Assembly: GCF_900109525.1 (NCBI RefSeq)
Contig: NZ_FOAN01000004.1
Coordinates: forward strand, 496,001 to 560,000
Origin: Allobosea lupini
Lineage (GTDB): Bacteria > Pseudomonadota > Alphaproteobacteria > Rhizobiales > Beijerinckiaceae
Direction: 5' to 3'
Length of the DNA: 64,000 nt
The notes under the pieces were generated by a model. The model made no database searches. It was given only the letters and a program-made list of their open reading frames with translations, and was not told the DNA's origin. Shown piece by piece: positions 5,780-17,450 of this stretch. The translations under genes were made by a program, and so were the position numbers. Position 1 is the stretch's first letter; each line of letters begins with the position of its first letter.

Positions 5780-6277
5780 ATGGACTGGTTCCAATCCCTG
5801 TTCCAGCGCCGGCCGAAGACGGGCCGCGCCGGCCCGCTCGACGTCCGCCATGCCCGCCAGGTCGCGGCCCTGCATCACCAGGGCGGCTTCGCGCGGCTGT
5901 GGGAACCCGGCGAGTGCGCGGCCCTGCTCGCCGACCGGGCGGTCGTGGCCGAGGGTGTGTTCATCGGCAGCGCCAACGAGCCTTGCGGCTTCGTGATGTC
6001 GCGGCTGGCCGCCGACGAGGCGGAAATCCTGAGCATCGTCGTCGCCGGCGGGAAGCGCCGGTCAGGGCTCGGGCAGACGCTGCTGTCAGCCCATCTCGCG
6101 CAATTGGCGGCGCGCGGCACGGCACGGCTCTTCCTCGAGGTCGAGGAGGGCAACGCGCCGGCAATCGCGCTTTACCGGCGTCTCGGGTTCGAGACCGTCG
6201 GGCGGCGCGAGGGATACTACCCGAAGCCGGACGGCAGCCGCGCCGCCGCGCTGGTGATGCGGCGCGATCTCGGTTGA
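5780..6277 (+). CDS. rimI: ribosomal-protein-alanine N-acetyltransferase RimI-like
   Basis: 165-aa GNAT acetyltransferase. Motif A is seen as GGKRRSGLGQTLLSAHL (acetyl-CoA pyrophosphate loop) and motif B as EEGNAPAIALYRRLGFETVGRREGYY, which is the RimI-type ending. RimI acetylates the N-terminal Ala of ribosomal protein S18. Position directly after tsaB supports the RimI call over a generic GNAT. The ATG at 5780 directly follows the palindromic repeat, so any Shine-Dalgarno must lie within it; none is obvious. Confidence 0.85.
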   Translation: MDWFQSLFQRRPKTGRAGPLDVRHARQVAALHHQGGFARLWEPGECAALLADRAVVAEGVFIGSANEPCGFVMSRLAADEAEILSIVVAGGKRRSGLGQTLLSAHLAQLAARGTARLFLEVEEGNAPAIALYRRLGFETVGRREGYYPKPDGSRAAALVMRRDLG

Positions 6278-6373
6278 GCTTCGTGCCGTTGGCGGCATGG
6301 ACGGCCGCAGGAGGTCCGATTATAGCCGGGCTCGCAGAAGCGGGGCGCCAACGCAGAGAATGAGCGGCTCAGC

Positions 6374-7171
6374 ATGAAAGGCATCCGTCCCGGCGCCATG
6401 GTGCGGCTTGCGCTGCTCGTCTTCGGCACGCTCGTCCTGATTCCGCCGCAGCTTGTCGCCATGCGCCTCGGGCGGCCGTTCTATTTCACTCGGCTGTTCC
6501 AGAAACTGGGCTGCCGCTGCTTCGGGGTGCGCATCACCACGCGCGGCGCGCCTCCGCCGGCAGGCCAAGGCGGGCTGATCGTCGCCAACCACACTTCCTG
6601 GCTCGACATCCCCGTCATCGGCACCACCGGGCCGCTCTCCTTCGTCGCCAAGGCCGAGGTCGCGACCTGGCCGGTGATCGGCTGGCTCTCGACACTGCAG
6701 CGCACCGTCTTCATCGACCGGATGCGCCGCGGCGCCACGGCCGGCGTCGCCAGCGAGATGGGCAGGCGGCTGCAGAACGGACAGTCGGTGGTTCTGTTCG
6801 CCGAGGGCACCACCGGCGACGGCACACGCGTCCTGCCGCTGCGCTCCTCGCTGCTCGGGGCCGCTCACGAAGCCGTGCGCGGGGCGGACGAGGCCGAGAC
6901 AACGATCTACCCGCTCTGCGTCACCTATACCGGCTTCCACGGCCTGCGCGGCGGGCGGGCCGAGCGCTCGGCGCTGTCCTGGTATGGCGACACCGAACTC
7001 GCGCCGCATTTCCAGGCGATGATCAATTCCGGCGCCATCGATGTGGAGCTCGCCTGGGGCGAGCCGATCCGGATGGGCCGCAAGCTCTCGCGCAAGGAGG
7101 CGACGCGCCTCGCCGAGATAGCGATCCGGCGGGCGCGGCAGGAAGCCGTCACCGGCCGGTCACGCGGCTGA
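6374..7171 (+). CDS. lysophospholipid acyltransferase (PlsC/OlsA family)
   Basis: 265-aa membrane-associated acyltransferase. An N-terminal hydrophobic segment (residues ~9-30) precedes the HX4D catalytic motif NHTSWLD and the FAEGTTGDGTRVLPLRSSLL block that binds glycerol-phosphate in PlsC enzymes. It acylates a lyso-lipid: 1-acylglycerol-3-phosphate if PlsC, lyso-ornithine lipid if OlsA. In Sinorhizobium meliloti the olsA gene sits, as I recall, in the same tsaB-rimI...miaB neighbourhood, so OlsA is a real alternative. The ATG at 6374 follows an in-frame stop shortly upstream. Confidence 0.85.
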   Translation: MKGIRPGAMVRLALLVFGTLVLIPPQLVAMRLGRPFYFTRLFQKLGCRCFGVRITTRGAPPPAGQGGLIVANHTSWLDIPVIGTTGPLSFVAKAEVATWPVIGWLSTLQRTVFIDRMRRGATAGVASEMGRRLQNGQSVVLFAEGTTGDGTRVLPLRSSLLGAAHEAVRGADEAETTIYPLCVTYTGFHGLRGGRAERSALSWYGDTELAPHFQAMINSGAIDVELAWGEPIRMGRKLSRKEATRLAEIAIRRARQEAVTGRSRG

Positions 7172-10509: not shown

Positions 10510-11498
10510 GCGACGACACCCGATCTTCCTCCTCGTCTGAACCGACGGGCCGTGGCCTGGCGCACTGGCTCGGCCACTTCCTCGACCGGCTCGGCCTGCG
10601 CCAGGGCGGTTCGATCCGCGAGGACATCACCGAGGCGCTGGCGCAGGACGGCGGCGGAGTGACCGATCTCTCGCCTCAGGAACGGGCGATGCTCTCGAAC
10701 GTGCTGAGCCTGCGCGAGCGCCGCGTCGCCGACGTGATGGTGCCGCGCGCCGACGTCATCGCGGTCTCCTCGGAGGCGACGCTCGGCGACCTCCTGGCGC
10801 TGTTCCGGACCGCCGGCCATTCGCGCCTACCCGTCTATGGCGAGTCGCTCGACGACCCCCGGGGGATGATCCACATCCGGGACTTCCTCGACTTCATCGC
10901 AGCCCGGGCCAAGCCGGGCCGGAAGCTGCGCGGCGAGGCGGAGCCGCCGGCTGGCCCGAGTCTGGGCGCCATCGACCTCTCGATGACGCTGGCCCAGGCC
11001 AAGATCCTGCGGCCGGTGCTCTACGTGCCGCCCTCGATGCCGGCGGTCGACCTTCTCGTCCGGATGCAGGCGACGCGCACCCATATCGCCCTGGTGATCG
11101 ACGAATATGGCGGCACCGACGGGCTGATCTCGATCGAGGACCTGGTCGAGATCGTCGTCGGCGACATCGAAGACGAGCACGATCTCGACGAAGCTCCCGC
11201 GATCGCGCCGGCCGGCGAGAACCGCTTCATCGCCGATGCCCGCGCCACCCTCGACGAGCTGAAGCAGGCGACCGGAATCGACCTGTCGAGCGCCGAGGTT
11301 GCCGAGGAGGTCGATACGCTCGGCGGGCTGATCGTGACCCTGGCCGGCCGCGTGCCGGTGCGCGGCGAACTGATCAAGGGGCCGGAGGACCTCGAATTCG
11401 AGGTGCTCGACGCCGATCCGCGCCGGGTCAAGCGCTTGCGCATCCATCGCCGCGATGCGATCGCGACCGAGGCACCAGCCGCGCCGGACGCCGCATGA
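10506..11498 (+). CDS. hemolysin C / CorC family CBS-domain protein
   Basis: 330 aa. Two CBS motifs (residues ~75-200, with VADVMVPRADVIAVS opening the first) are followed by a CorC_HlyC transporter-associated domain (~245-325). There is no membrane DUF21 region, so this is the soluble CorC/YbeX type, linked to Mg/Co handling and in ybeZ-ybeY-ybeX-lnt operons to ribosome function. The start at 10506 is set by its ATGA overlap with ybeY; the frame remains open upstream only because it shadows ybeY. Confidence 0.92.
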   Translation: MSDDTRSSSSSEPTGRGLAHWLGHFLDRLGLRQGGSIREDITEALAQDGGGVTDLSPQERAMLSNVLSLRERRVADVMVPRADVIAVSSEATLGDLLALFRTAGHSRLPVYGESLDDPRGMIHIRDFLDFIAARAKPGRKLRGEAEPPAGPSLGAIDLSMTLAQAKILRPVLYVPPSMPAVDLLVRMQATRTHIALVIDEYGGTDGLISIEDLVEIVVGDIEDEHDLDEAPAIAPAGENRFIADARATLDELKQATGIDLSSAEVAEEVDTLGGLIVTLAGRVPVRGELIKGPEDLEFEVLDADPRRVKRLRIHRRDAIATEAPAAPDAA

Positions 11499-13093
11499 CG
11501 CTGCTTTCGGCGCTGGCCGACCGCGTCATCCTCGCCTGGGGCTGGCCGCGCCGGTTGATCGCGCTCATTTGCGGCGCCTGCGGCGCGCTGGCGCTGGCCC
11601 CGCTCGATCTCTGGCCGCTGATGGTCGTGCCGATGACCGCGGCGGTCTGGCTGATCGACGGCTCCGTCGCGGCAAACCGGCGCGGGCGTCTCTGGGCGGC
11701 CGCGAGCGCCGGCTGGTGGTGGGGCTTCGGCTATCATCTCGCCGGTTTGTGGTGGCTCGGCGCCGCCTTCCTGGTCGAGGCCGACAAGTTCGCCTGGGCG
11801 ATGCCGCTCGGCGTCGTGGCGCTGCCAGCCTTCCTCGCCGTCTTCCCGGCTGCCGGTTTCGCCCTGGCGCGGGCGCTCTGGCCGACCGGCGCCGGGCGCA
11901 TCCTGGTGCTGGCGGCCGTGCTGGCGCTTAGCGAGTGGCTGCGCGGCCATGTCCTCACCGGCTTTCCCTGGAACGTCTACGGCATGATGCTGGCCGGCCC
12001 GGCTTGGCTGGCCCAGAGCGCCAGCCTGATCGGGCTCTATGGGCTGACGGCGCTGGCCGTCGCGATCGGGGCCGCGCCGGCCGTTCTCGGAACGGGCGAA
12101 AAGGGCGAAGGGCGCTGGCGCGCGCCTGCGCTGGCGGGGCTCGCGCTGGCAGCCATGGCCGGATTCGGCGCCTGGCGGATTCCGGCAGAGCCTGTTCCGG
12201 CGCTGAGCGGGGTCAAACTCCGGCTGATGCAGCCGAACCTGCCGCAGGATGCCAAGTTCAGCGCGCGCAACAGCGAGATGATCCTGTCGCACTACCTCGC
12301 GCTCAGCGACCGGGCGACCGGCCCGGCGACCTCGGGCGTGCAGGACGTGACGCATCTGATCTGGCCGGAGTCGGCCTTCCCCTTCCTGCTCGGGCGCACG
12401 CCGCAGGCACTGGCGCGGATCGCCGCGCTGCTGCCGCCGAGCACGACGCTGATCACCGGCGCGGCCCGCGCCGGCGAAACCTTGCCTGGTGAAAGCCGGC
12501 CGCCGATCTACAACGCGATCCAGGTGGTGAACGACGAGGGCACGATCACCGGCAGCTACGACAAGGTCCATCTCGTCCCTTTCGGCGAGTATCTGCCTGC
12601 TGTCTTCGAGCGGCTGATCCGGGCGGTCGGCCTGTCCGAATTCGTCTCGGTTCCGGGCGGCTTCGCGTCGGGCAGCCGACGCACGCCGCTGTCGATCCGC
12701 GGCCTGCCGCCGGCGGCGAGCCTGATCTGCTACGAGGTGATCTTCCCCGGCGAGGCGATGCCGAGCGGGCCGCGGCCGGGCTTCATCCTCAACCTGACCA
12801 ATGACGGCTGGTTCGGGCAGACCAGCGGCCCCTACCAGCATCTCGCCCAGGCCCGCCTGCGCGCCATCGAGGAAGGCCTGCCGCTCGTGCGCGTCGCCAA
12901 CACCGGGATCTCGGCGGTGACCGACCATTACGGGCGCATCCGCGCCGCGTTGCCGCTCGGCGAAGCCGGCGTCATCGACACCTCGCTGCCCCGCGCTGGT
13001 CCGGCGACGCCCTATTCCCGCTTCGGCGACCTTTTCTTTGCAGGTGTAGTTGCCAGCCTAATGCTCGCTGGAGTAATAATGCGGCGACGGTAA
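11495..13093 (+). CDS. lnt: apolipoprotein N-acyltransferase
   Basis: Inner-membrane enzyme adding the third acyl chain to lipoproteins, 532 aa. About six hydrophobic segments lead into a periplasmic nitrilase domain with the catalytic triad Glu292 (IWPESAFPF), Lys357 (YDKVHLVPFGEY) and Cys412 (LICYEVIFPG). ATGA overlap with the CorC gene gives the start. Completes the phoH-ybeY-corC-lnt run. Confidence 0.96.
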   Translation: MTLLSALADRVILAWGWPRRLIALICGACGALALAPLDLWPLMVVPMTAAVWLIDGSVAANRRGRLWAAASAGWWWGFGYHLAGLWWLGAAFLVEADKFAWAMPLGVVALPAFLAVFPAAGFALARALWPTGAGRILVLAAVLALSEWLRGHVLTGFPWNVYGMMLAGPAWLAQSASLIGLYGLTALAVAIGAAPAVLGTGEKGEGRWRAPALAGLALAAMAGFGAWRIPAEPVPALSGVKLRLMQPNLPQDAKFSARNSEMILSHYLALSDRATGPATSGVQDVTHLIWPESAFPFLLGRTPQALARIAALLPPSTTLITGAARAGETLPGESRPPIYNAIQVVNDEGTITGSYDKVHLVPFGEYLPAVFERLIRAVGLSEFVSVPGGFASGSRRTPLSIRGLPPAASLICYEVIFPGEAMPSGPRPGFILNLTNDGWFGQTSGPYQHLAQARLRAIEEGLPLVRVANTGISAVTDHYGRIRAALPLGEAGVIDTSLPRAGPATPYSRFGDLFFAGVVASLMLAGVIMRRR

Positions 13094-13200: not shown

Positions 13201-13620
13201 ATGTTGAAGAAAGTACCGAATCCGATCGACCGCCATGTCGGCAGCCGCGTCCGGATGCGCCGCATGCTCGCCGGCGTCAGCCAGGAACGGCTCGGCGAGG
13301 CGCTGGGCCTGACCTTCCAGCAGGTTCAGAAATACGAGAAGGGCACCAACCGGATCAGCGCCAGCCGGTTGCAGCAGATTTCCAAGATGCTGGGCGTGCC
13401 CGTCGCCTTCTTCTTCGACGGGGCGCCCGCCGACGATAGCGTCGGGGAAGGCTTCGCCGATGCGTCGGCCACAACCTATGTCGCCGATTTCCTCGCGACC
13501 AGCGAGGGTGTGCAGCTGACCAAGGCCTTCGTGCGGATCAAGAGCCCGCGCGTGCGCCGGCGTATCGTCGATCTCGTCGAATCGCTCGGCGAAGCGCCGA
13601 TCGACACCATCGAGCAGTGA
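13201..13620 (+). CDS. XRE family transcriptional regulator (copy 1)
   Basis: 139-aa Cro/CI-type regulator. Helix-turn-helix at residues ~12-65 (SRVRMRRMLAGVSQERLGEA and FQQVQKYEKGTNRISASRL), then a ~75-residue C-terminal region with FADASATTYVADFLATSEGVQ. The start at 13201 is chosen over ATG 13129 because copy 2 (15672-16085) begins with the same MLKK.PNPIDRHVGSR and because AGGGGA lies at a good distance. Rhizobiales usually carry one such gene between lnt and metK; here there are two, with a quorum-sensing cassette between. Target genes unknown. Confidence 0.9.
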   Translation: MLKKVPNPIDRHVGSRVRMRRMLAGVSQERLGEALGLTFQQVQKYEKGTNRISASRLQQISKMLGVPVAFFFDGAPADDSVGEGFADASATTYVADFLATSEGVQLTKAFVRIKSPRVRRRIVDLVESLGEAPIDTIEQ

Positions 13621-13654
13621 CGCACTGAACCGCTGGATTTCCTGCCGAGGCGTG

Positions 13655-13697
13655 CTGTCTTTCCGGAACTTCGCAGAGCGAAAGGCCGGAAAGACAG
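13655..13697. terminator. stem-loop between convergent xre1 and the luxI operon
   Basis: Perfect 12-base arms, CTGTCTTTCCGG at 13655-13666 and CCGGAAAGACAG at 13686-13697, with further near-pairing inside (CTTCGC / GCGAAAG), make a long hairpin between two converging genes. No strong T-run on either side; it probably acts as a bidirectional terminator or transcript stabiliser. Confidence 0.6.
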
Positions 13698-13723
13698 TGC
13701 AATTCCCTTGATGGGACGTTGGC

Positions 13724-14011
13724 TCAGTGCAGGGCCGGGGGCGTATCCTGAGTCAGGACGAGCGTGTTCTGATTGAGCCGCTGCAGTTGCGGGCTGGGAT
13801 TCACCAGCAGGAAATCCCTGAGCTTCACCTGGTCCGGCTCAGACATGGACAGGATCTGCACTGCGAGCCAGAGCTCGTCCGGCAAGTCCATCCGGTGAGC
13901 CACATCCACCAGTTCCTGATGCACCGGCTGGTTGCGCAGCAGGGTAGTGAGCAGGCCGAGGGCGTATTCGATCTTGTCGCGGCTGCTGCCGGTGTCATGC
14001 TGATTAGCCAT
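13724..14011 (-). CDS. hypothetical 95-aa protein, coupled to luxI
   Basis: I do not recognise this family. 95 residues, predicted largely alpha-helical and acidic-to-neutral, opening MANQHDTGSSRDKIEYALGL and containing PVHQELVDVAHRMDLPDELW and VKLRDFLLVNPSPQLQRLNQ. No signal peptide, no membrane segment, no obvious helix-turn-helix. The ATG at 14011 overlaps the last eight bases of luxI in another frame and has GGAGGA upstream, so it is very likely translated with luxI. Context suggests a modulator of signal synthesis or of LuxR activity (an RsaL- or TraM-like role by position only), but that is speculation. Confidence 0.72.
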   Translation of the reverse strand: MANQHDTGSSRDKIEYALGLLTTLLRNQPVHQELVDVAHRMDLPDELWLAVQILSMSEPDQVKLRDFLLVNPSPQLQRLNQNTLVLTQDTPPALH

Positions 14012-14648
14012 GCGAGATCCTCCGCTCGCCCGGGGTCCGCTTCGCGTCGCGACGCGACAGGATGACCGGCGCTTCGATGTCCTTGAAGGCAAGGGTACGG
14101 CGATAGGCGTCCTCGCTCACCGTGATGATCGTGCCGACGCAGTTCATGCCCTCGATCACGGTCGGCAGGCCAAGCGGCCGGACCTCCCAGCCCAGTTCCA
14201 GGAAACGCGGCATCCACCACGTCTCCATCACCACGGTGATCGCCGTGATGTCGTTGGCGAGGCAATACTCGAACATCCCGGCCAGAACGGTATGCAGCAC
14301 CTTGCTGTCGGGGCCGCGCCGCTCCGGCACGACGAAGATGCGCGTCCATTCGACGATGTCGGTGCCGCGCTGGAGCCCACGCACATCGGCCAGGAACGGG
14401 AAGACATCAGCCATCAGATGCGGGCAGGTCGTAGGGACGAGCCGCGTGCCGCCGATGACGCGCCCGTTCTCGATCGCCAGCAGATAGGTCGCATCCGCGT
14501 TGTCGAACTGGTCGACCTCACGCCCGTCGGGCCGCTCGAGCGCCATCCATTTGCGCTCGCCGACATAAATCTGGTGCCGAATCTGGTAGTGCTGCTCGAG
14601 CTCGGCCCGGTAGAGGTGCCGGTTCCCGGCATCGATAACGTGGATCAT
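14004..14648 (-). CDS. acyl-homoserine-lactone synthase (LuxI family)
   Basis: 214-aa autoinducer synthase making N-acyl-homoserine lactone from SAM and acyl-ACP or acyl-CoA. The invariant LuxI residues are all there at near-canonical positions: Arg24, Tyr28 (usually Phe), Trp34, Glu44, Asp46, Asp49 and Arg69, then the IVEWTRIFV block with Glu and Arg. ATG 14648 follows GGGAGGGAAG. Acyl-chain length cannot be read from the sequence. It lies 144 bp downstream of the luxR stop, and a perfect 16-bp palindrome at 14704-14719 is 55 bp before its start. The neighbouring metK makes its substrate SAM. Confidence 0.95.
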   Translation of the reverse strand: MIHVIDAGNRHLYRAELEQHYQIRHQIYVGERKWMALERPDGREVDQFDNADATYLLAIENGRVIGGTRLVPTTCPHLMADVFPFLADVRGLQRGTDIVEWTRIFVVPERRGPDSKVLHTVLAGMFEYCLANDITAITVVMETWWMPRFLELGWEVRPLGLPTVIEGMNCVGTIITVSEDAYRRTLAFKDIEAPVILSRRDAKRTPGERRISHG

Positions 14649-14703
14649 CGCCGCTTCCCTCCCTAGAGGGACGCAAGCTGGCTCCATTCAGGTTTCACGG
14701 GTA

Positions 14704-14719
14704 TTCCGGAATTCCGGAA
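14704..14719. promoter_or_regulatory. 16-bp perfect palindrome upstream of luxI (candidate lux box)
   Basis: TTCCGGAATTCCGGAA is a perfect palindrome, built from two TTCCGGAA half sites, located 55 bp before the luxI start codon in the luxR-luxI gap. Size, symmetry and position fit a LuxR-family operator that overlaps or adjoins the -35 element; the sequence does not match the classic CTG-N10-CAG lux box, so binding by the neighbouring LuxR is inferred. Confidence 0.6.
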
Positions 14720-14792
14720 GATGCGGGCGAAATCGACCGGATTCGAGCAGCTGTTCCTAACGCATAAGTAGTCCCGCCTCGACGGAACACGC

Positions 14793-15524
14793 CTAGATGC
14801 TGATCTCGCCGCGGCGATAGGCCTCGATCACCGTGCGCGTGCGGCCCCTGACGCCGAGCTTCCTGGCGGCGTTCTCGAAATGGGCCTCCGCCGTGCCGGC
14901 GGAAACGCCGAGGCGCTCCGCTACGCCTTCCGTCGTCTTGCCGATCGCGAACCAGGTCAGGACCTCGCGCTCGCGAACGGTCAGGACATGCTCAAGCCGT
15001 GCCGGCCGCAGGCAATCTGCGGCCTTGCCATGGGCGTAAATCGACATCAGGTGAATCGCGGAACGAGCCTGGCGCGACAGGTCCGGCCGATCGCCGGCCA
15101 TGGTGACCACGGCCTGAAAGCCCGCTTCGCCATGGATCGGCACGCAGAAGCCCTCGATCATGTTGAAGTCGCGAGCCCGGTGCATCACCTCGCGCTGGCG
15201 CGGCAGCGCCGCGCCCTCCTGATAGACATCGTTCCAGGCGAACGGGTCGATCGTCGTCTTGCAATGGGCCGCGATCGGGTCCCAATCCGAGAACGACTTC
15301 TCCAGATAGAGCTCGAACCAGCCCGGCGGCCAGCCGTTGAGGAGAACGAGCGGATCGATCCGGTCGCCGATTTCCGGCAGGCCGGTGATCAGGAAGGCGT
15401 GGAAGCCATAGCTGGCGAGCTTATCGCGCAAAGCGGCGACGACCGTCGTCGGATCGGTGAGAGTGCTCAGCCGATCGATGAAGTCGAGCGCGTCTCGTCC
15501 CGCGTTGAAATGTCGTCCCGACAT
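14793..15524 (-). CDS. LuxR family quorum-sensing regulator
   Basis: 243 aa. N-terminal autoinducer-binding domain with the ligand-contacting set Trp69, Tyr73, Asp82-Pro83 and Trp97, spaced exactly as Trp57, Tyr61, Asp70-Pro71 and Trp85 of TraR. C-terminal GerE-type HTH (residues ~180-240) with LTVREREVLTWFAIGKTTEG and the GTAEAHFENAARKLGV recognition region. ATG 15524 gives the normal family length; longer in-frame starts would run into the region before xre copy 2. Transcribed toward luxI, so the pair is a complete AHL circuit. Confidence 0.93.
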   Translation of the reverse strand: MSGRHFNAGRDALDFIDRLSTLTDPTTVVAALRDKLASYGFHAFLITGLPEIGDRIDPLVLLNGWPPGWFELYLEKSFSDWDPIAAHCKTTIDPFAWNDVYQEGAALPRQREVMHRARDFNMIEGFCVPIHGEAGFQAVVTMAGDRPDLSRQARSAIHLMSIYAHGKAADCLRPARLEHVLTVREREVLTWFAIGKTTEGVAERLGVSAGTAEAHFENAARKLGVRGRTRTVIEAYRRGEISI

Positions 15525-15671
15525 GTCCCGTCTTTTTCCGATCTTAGCAGCTTCAACGCAGATCGGCCAAGAATCAACGCATACCAATGCATACCAGCTC
15601 ATGGCCTGCCAGAGCCGGCGGTAGACGCGCGGCCGGAAGTGCGATTGAGTGAGACCCGAGGTGAACGGCCC

Positions 15672-16085
15672 ATGCTGAAGAAACTTCCGAATCCGATCGA
15701 CCGTCATGTCGGCAGCCGGGTACGCATGCAGCGCATGCTGGCCGGAATCAGCCAGGAAAAGCTGGGCGAGGCGTTGGGCCTGACCTTTCAGCAGGTGCAG
15801 AAATACGAGAAGGGCACAAATCGGATCAGTGCCAGCCGCCTGCAGCAGATCGCCAAGATGCTAGGCGTACCCGTCTCCTTCTTCTTCGAGGGCGCCCCGG
15901 CCGGCGACGTGGCCACCGGCGGCTTCGCCGACGCCTCGGCGACGGCCTATGTCGCCGACTTCCTCTCCACCAGCGAGGGCGTACAACTTTCCAAGGCGTT
16001 CGTACGCATCAAGAACCCGCGTGTCCGCCGACGCGTCATCGACCTTGTGGAGGCTCTGGCGGATGAAACCGGAGAAACGGCCTGA
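15672..16085 (+). CDS. XRE family transcriptional regulator (copy 2)
   Basis: 137 aa, a close paralogue of the regulator at 13201-13620: same opening MLKKLPNPIDRHVGSRVRMQ, same HTH, same C-terminal FADASATAYVADFLSTSEGV. The DNA is also very similar, with at least one exact 20-base run in the HTH. The in-frame region upstream of 15672 is antisense to luxR and is not coding. Together the copies form a direct repeat around the luxR-luxI cassette. Probable operator targets unknown; copy 2 is nearer metK. Confidence 0.9.
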   Translation: MLKKLPNPIDRHVGSRVRMQRMLAGISQEKLGEALGLTFQQVQKYEKGTNRISASRLQQIAKMLGVPVSFFFEGAPAGDVATGGFADASATAYVADFLSTSEGVQLSKAFVRIKNPRVRRRVIDLVEALADETGETA

Positions 16086-16115: not shown

Positions 16116-16244
16116 CAAAATATCTGTCAAAAGAATTTCCTGCCTTGACGGCGAACCTTTCCGCTGCAAAAGACGCTGCGCATTTTTCATTCGTGCGCAG
16201 GTTTCCACCGGCGCCCGCCCCGCAGCTTGGGAAGGATCCCGACC

Positions 16245-17450
<1,206 letters not shown>

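Follow-up and report, generated by a model that had tools for sequence, protein, structure and literature searches.

A LuxR-LuxI cassette with a candidate PraR antagonist between two praR-type genes in one Bosea clade

The window analyzed here, a 64,000-nucleotide (nt) stretch of Allobosea lupini DNA (contig NZ_FOAN01000004.1, positions 496,001 to 560,000; the genus is taken as Bosea after its named relatives), carries between lnt and metK two plus-strand XRE genes that enclose minus-strand luxR, luxI, and a 95-amino-acid (aa) open reading frame (ORF95). We propose, with a probability of roughly 0.57, that this is an autoinducing LuxR-LuxI circuit whose main output, ORF95, binds and inhibits the flanking PraR-type regulators. 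At high cell density, LuxR with its acyl-homoserine lactone (AHL) would activate a luxI-ORF95 operon through a dyad upstream of luxI. The accumulating ORF95 would then inactivate PraR1 and PraR2 and so shift the PraR regulon, which in relatives comprises attachment, swarming, or R-body genes. A single duplication of praR, in the common ancestor of a Bosea clade of 11 genomes, would have produced the two copies between which the luxRI-ORF95 cassette lies. The locus most likely works like the Cin-CinS-PraR and Mma-MmaP-PraR systems, except that the candidate antagonist is new and that a copy of the target gene lies on each side of the cassette.

Organization of the locus

The features of the locus are the following (window coordinates).

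11495..13093, plus strand: lnt, conserved left flank (TIGR00546, 5.4e-92)
13201..13620, plus strand: praR1, lnt-side XRE/Cro-CI regulator of 139 aa (HTH_3, 5.9e-13; lnt-praR-metK-trmB synteny)
13621..13723, spacer: convergent praR1/ORF95 region, with an imperfect 20-nt inverted repeat at 13655-13697
13724..14011, minus strand: ORF95, candidate anti-PraR small protein of 95 aa (kept in 11/11 carriers)
14004..14648, minus strand: luxI-type AHL synthase of 214 aa (Autoind_synth, 4.2e-23)
14704..14719, site: candidate lux box ahead of luxI, the perfect dyad TTCCGGAATTCCGGAA
14793..15524, minus strand: luxR-type AHL-responsive regulator of 243 aa, start codon picked by conservation (Autoind_bind, 1.7e-30; GerE, 1e-14)
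15525..15671, spacer: divergent luxR/praR2 region, with a conserved block around GAATCAACGCAT at 15571-15582, a possible operator
15672..16085, plus strand: praR2, metK-side XRE regulator of 137 aa (HTH_3, 3.4e-14)
16227..17450, plus strand: metK, conserved right flank (TIGR01034, 5.9e-140)

The HTH_3 domain spans residues 18-70 in both XRE products, a Cro/CI-type helix-turn-helix near the N terminus. Both genes sit between lnt and metK and are followed by a tRNA methyltransferase gene (trmB-like, beyond metK on the praR2 side), which is the neighborhood stated to be conserved for the praR/phrR/cdxA locus (PMC10688885, PMC10790750; here and below, papers are cited for the part of their text that was accessible). 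By domain and synteny, the two genes occupy this conserved alphaproteobacterial site and are predicted to encode PraR-type DNA-binding regulators. They are 81% identical in amino acids and 79% in nucleotides over aligned codons and share no exact run longer than 20 nt. They form two pairs of direct repeats, both in register at an offset of 2,471 nt: one of 238 nt with 86% identity (13199-13436/15670-15907) and one of 131 nt with 80% identity (13450-13580/15921-16051). Each copy is under purifying selection, with a mean ratio of nonsynonymous to synonymous substitution rates (dN/dS) of 0.10 within the 11 genomes that carry the arrangement (the carriers). An AlphaFold model of PraR1 built from 9 sequences was too poor to interpret (predicted local distance difference test [pLDDT], 54).

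The quorum-sensing genes are complete. LuxI scores 82.3 bits against Autoind_synth, for a curated cutoff of 24, and LuxR has both the autoinducer-binding domain and the GerE helix-turn-helix. AHL production is predicted; isolates of Bosea massiliensis make C6-homoserine lactone (HSL), 3-oxo-C6-HSL, and 3-oxo-C8-HSL, for which the accessible text names no gene (PMC4732077). The spacer alignments cover 10 of the 11 carriers (G003, whose locus is split over two contigs, was omitted), and the dyad TTCCGGAATTCCGGAA is exact in seven of these and has one change in three. It is the sole site in the 6.1-Mb genome at ≤1 mismatch, and at ≤3 mismatches the genome has 28 sites where the reversed control gives 20; one of the 28 lies directly upstream of a luxI-like gene on contig C8. 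Related dyads, as judged by eye, precede luxI in four other loci (L113 to L116). On these counts, luxI-ORF95 is the only strong target seen. We infer that the dyad is the LuxR-binding site and luxI-ORF95 its main target, so that the output of the circuit beyond the signal itself would be ORF95.

The same contig C8 (G000, 180500-199500; locus L102) holds a third praR-like gene (2273-2671, 66-71% identical) about 11 kb from a luxR-luxI pair (38%), on a contig of 240 kb. The luxI-like gene of this pair (13899-14489), which the 3-mismatch dyad precedes, resembles the query to about the same degree as the luxI genes on two Bosea plasmids.

The luxR/praR2 spacer has a conserved block at 15566-15591, where the window carries a repeated GCATACCA, and the praR1/ORF95 spacer (about 100-350 nt) is conserved neither in sequence nor in length. 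The inverted repeat of the latter was not among the terminator-like sites in a scan of the locus, and a sigma-70 scan of the locus returned 0 promoter-like sites. The GC content of the cassette (62-66%) matches that of the metK side (60-67%; upstream flank, 69-73%) and is therefore not diagnostic.

ORF95 as a candidate PraR antagonist

The first 8 nt of ORF95 are also the last 8 nt of luxI. The luxI stop codon is overlapped in all 11 carriers, which also share the start sequence ATGGCTA(A/G), and the two genes are probably cotranscribed. Over the 55 pairs of carriers, the mean dN/dS of ORF95 is 0.079, indicative of strong purifying selection (luxI, 0.132; luxR, 0.073; lnt, 0.110; metK, 0.092). 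The low values of ORF95, luxI, and luxR indicate that the whole cassette, ORF95 included, is maintained as protein. ORF95 is a small protein without a known domain, encoded directly behind luxI, as are the members of the CinS/MmaP class. We propose an anti-PraR role for it because CinS and MmaP, two PraR-binding small proteins, occupy the same position and because praR-like sequence adjoins luxRI elsewhere. CinS inhibits PraR in Rhizobium, and MmaP seems to have the same effect in Methylobacterium.

This linkage takes several forms. In Bosea sp. BK604 (L116), luxR and luxI are followed by an ORF with which a praR gene is convergent, as praR1 is here. In G453, of the same family (L134/L179), a praR-like gene is divergent from luxR-luxI, as praR2 is here. 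In a metagenome-assembled genome (MAG; L117), a 51-aa ORF on the minus strand (6836-6991) matches the C-terminal part of PraR only (49%) and faces an MmaP-like ORF (6507-6827) behind luxI; this fragment is what remains of a praR gene or else a C-terminal domain that stands alone.

Divergent relatives of ORF95 lie behind luxI in L113, L114, and L116, where the 8-nt overlap is also kept. In L114, the gene beside luxI is one that we take, from its sequence, to be uvrB-like. In Bosea sp. TND4EK4 (L115), the ORF behind the luxI relative (6001-6639, 75%) also has the 8-nt overlap, and its 174-aa product does not visibly resemble ORF95. In G033 (L101), the ORF95 relative behind luxI is split over two frames; it is unsplit in G001, G008, and G020. 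An MmaP-like profile made from ORFs behind luxI, the members being recognized by position and resemblance rather than by name, reaches 12 loci in at least two families and the MAG (L117, L185, L188, L190, L125-L127, L129, L130, L132, L133, and L135), which suggests a wider family of luxI-coupled small proteins. Among four genomes of family f6 that have luxI and fall outside the praR-matching set (G288, G325, G384, and G422), no common small ORF was seen by eye behind luxI; in three of the four the next ORF is long (227-638 aa). Four genomes are too few for a test.

The cin quorum genes of Rhizobium leguminosarum are located elsewhere in the genome than praR. The target of CinS in the CinR-CinI-CinS system is a PraR-type XRE protein, as is proposed for ORF95, and the praR paralogue of this species, RL0149, is not described in the accessible text as flanking quorum genes, unlike the copies here (PMC4149787). 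The MmaR-MmaI-MmaP system of Methylobacterium fujisawaense likewise has LuxR, LuxI, and a small protein directly behind luxI, and genes for S-adenosylmethionine synthetase and a tRNA methyltransferase follow its praR ortholog, as they do here. It differs in that the locus tags of praR (957) and mmaR (3344) are far apart and that one praR is described (PMC10790750), and no relationship of ORF95 to MmaP-like proteins is detectable. SinI of Bacillus subtilis resembles the proposed ORF95 in being a small anti-repressor of an XRE regulator, SinR (PMC4149787, PMC10688885), but ORF95 has no SinI Pfam match. In Caulobacter, CdxA belongs to the orthologous XRE locus and XRE paralogues are retained, as here, although the accessible text mentions no luxRI cassette (PMC10688885). 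No description of the present locus was found in the literature on Bosea quorum sensing and on PraR/CinS/MmaP, as covered by the titles and abstract openings listed, subscription papers being mostly beyond reach.

Several results weigh against ORF95 as a quorum-induced PraR antagonist. The protein has no sequence match in Pfam, NCBIfam, or the PDB. Its comparison with MmaP-like proteins gave an hhalign probability of 0.2%, that is, no detectable homology, and the MmaP-like profile search fails to reach it. Its structure model is only moderately confident (pLDDT, 70), and a fold search with this model gave no clear match. LuxR may also act through degenerate sites missed by the dyad search. Among 44 noncarrier genomes of the order with a LuxI match, one has a praR-like neighbor within flanks of about 1.5 or 3 kb, which makes praR adjacency unnecessary for such a system. 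G183 and G380, of genus g44, have no praR match at E 1e-25 and carry a similar small ORF behind luxI, so that such ORFs may have other partners. Finally, PraR is inferred to activate in Methylobacterium and to repress in Rhizobium, and the effect here could have either sign.

Two other identities for ORF95 gained no support. A likeness to SinI, suggested by a motif, had no match in the Pfam and PDB sequence searches and no clear one in the fold search, and a mimicry of PraR was not significant in a profile comparison with the PraR alignment (probability, 1.7%). A plasmid origin gained none either: the plasmid collection contains nothing that matches ORF95, and its best LuxI is 48% identical.

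Distribution and origin of the two praR copies

Eleven of the 67 Bosea genomes carry the arrangement lnt-praR1-ORF95-luxI-luxR-praR2-metK (in G003, over two contigs); in the remaining 56, one praR separates lnt from metK. In this sample, a doubled praR at the site always comes with the cassette, and no genome, the carrier clade included, has an excised or amplified cassette allele. A praR match (E 1e-25) was obtained in 350 of the 397 genomes sampled across the order. The neighborhoods read for 30 loci of these genomes comprise 27 single-copy lnt-praR-metK loci (one of them, G040, also counted among the 56), 2 carriers, and 1 locus (L170) without an adjoining lnt or metK. In a tree of lnt and metK, the 11 carriers are one clade (support, 100) adjoining the single-copy G017 and G050. 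The layout is derived and stable in one Bosea clade. In genus g44, of the same family, 7 of the 8 sampled genomes (G183, G240, G262, G338, G380, G407, and G442) have no praR match at the same threshold.

The LuxI family (E 1e-60) has one match in each of 17 genus genomes, 11 at the lnt-metK site and 6 elsewhere, and none in G017 or G050. The LuxI protein tree places the 11 carriers in one clade (95/93) within a group of 17 Bosea rows (98/96); it uses 12 of the order-wide loci, has several long branches outside the Bosea group, and its outgroup does not form one side of a branch. The 12 named loci with LuxI relatives are labeled Bosea in 8 cases (including Root483D1, itself a carrier, and CRIB-10, Tri-44, and CS1GBMeth4), Methylobacterium in 1 (a MAG), and with a family or order name only in 3.

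The origin of the two copies was addressed with a praR tree of 87 rows that includes 9 of the extra paralogues found. In this tree praR1 is one clade (96/90) and praR2 another (100/94), the two are each other's sisters (100/98), and the pair adjoins the single praR of G017 and G050 (99/87). Without the extra paralogues, the copies still fall together (96/84), and a position beside G017/G050 costs 0.66 log units relative to the best tree. Three residues are common to all 22 copies and occur in none of 48 singles. The pairing of the copies in the best trees and these residues favor, although they do not prove, one in-place duplication before the 11 carriers diverged. The half-gene trees conflict with it in part: the 5′ half mixes praR1 and praR2, and the 48 singles, G017 and G050 among them, lie on one side of a branch (5′, 88/92; 3′, 100/98), apart from both copies. 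Full-gene trees that join one copy to the sister lineage and leave the other outside are 19 and 26 log units worse, yet the approximately unbiased test does not reject them (P = 0.12 and 0.15). This conflict and the undecisive tests weigh against certainty.

The same results give some room to another origin, silent on function, in which a praR-bearing module recombined into the native praR and left one native and one incoming copy. A four-gene module with luxR-luxI-ORF facing praR does exist, in L116, and a single crossover of such a module into praR would yield the observed layout. We consider this origin unlikely, given the sister relationship of the copies in the full-length trees, their placement near G017/G050, and the three residues absent from the singles; moreover, the praR of L116 groups with the praR of its own genome (98/84, on a long branch). 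In G058 and G047, long runs of third-position agreement between the copies (P = 0.013 and 0.026, without correction for the 11 tests) are a hint of gene conversion.

These data bear on a preliminary description of the window, made from the sequence alone, which placed luxR, luxI, and a 95-aa ORF on the minus strand between two similar plus-strand XRE genes in direct repeat, without recognizing PraR in the XRE genes or a possible PraR antagonist in the ORF. The domain matches and the two repeat pairs bear out this layout, the alignment of the two genes that it called for agrees with their similarity, and its expectation of a single XRE gene in relatives holds in the genus and in the order loci read. 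Its idea that the cassette entered by a duplication-type event stands insofar as the cassette allele is derived from a single-XRE locus and a duplication is favored; the duplication itself is not proved. Its suggestion that the cassette may be lost or amplified by recombination between the repeats found no such allele: all 11 carriers keep both copies and the cassette, and the copies are only about 79% identical.

Alternative functions and significance

The preliminary description had also suggested that the XRE proteins control the cassette. In a version of this idea, PraR1 and PraR2 would bind the luxR/praR2 spacer or the luxI promoter and time quorum firing, and ORF95 would have another role. 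The conserved GAATCAACGCAT block in the divergent spacer would offer an operator, and PraR of R. leguminosarum represses its own gene as well as the luxR-type raiR and rhiR (PMC4149787). However, the motif reported for Rhizobium PraR, TTGCAA, is in none of the spacers of the locus, the block has by eye no counterpart upstream of praR1, and no operator common to the praR1 and praR2 upstream regions was seen by eye. A conserved ORF95 would also be left unexplained, and the precedents point mainly the other way (PMC4149787, PMC10790750). We thus find control of the cassette by PraR rather unlikely as the main explanation, although it could coexist with inhibition of PraR by ORF95 as a feedback loop; the regulatory arrow probably runs from the cassette to the XRE proteins.

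It is also conceivable, although we judge it distinctly improbable, that the neighborhood is a coincidence: the lnt-metK interval would be a tolerated insertion site, LuxRI would control unrelated genes, and praR would have been doubled by chance on entry of the cassette. The presence of the same LuxI family at other sites in 6 of the 67 genus genomes indicates that the module has moved. Against it, praR-like genes or fragments adjoin luxRI in L116, L179, and L117 too, both copies and the cassette are kept under purifying selection in every carrier, and the genome offers no second strong dyad.

Inhibition of PraR1 and PraR2 by ORF95 is the explanation we prefer. A more far-reaching form of it, which we advance tentatively and think more doubtful than the proposal itself, is that ORF95 founds a third, unrelated class of quorum-induced PraR antagonists. 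This Bosea clade would then have a closed switch, in which the operon lies between two diverging copies of its target, the promoter region of praR2 and luxR is common to both, and mutual regulation of PraR, LuxR, and ORF95 gives a density-gated bistability.

In the species studied, the genes under the control of PraR-type regulators are concerned with attachment, swarming, or symbiosis (PMC10790750, PMC4149787, PMC10688885), and the order-wide matches show these regulators to be nearly universal in the order. In the literature found, only two systems, Cin and Mma, are described as connecting cell density to PraR. In the present locus, the genes for signal, receptor, candidate antagonist, and target lie within about 3 kb and could be studied together. 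Binding of PraR by ORF95, a protein that does not resemble MmaP, would mean that PraR antagonists under quorum control probably had more than one origin; others could then be sought where praR copies are linked to luxRI. In one branch of Bosea, then, a quorum sensor and its probable target are neighbors, and a small protein of a new type may connect them.

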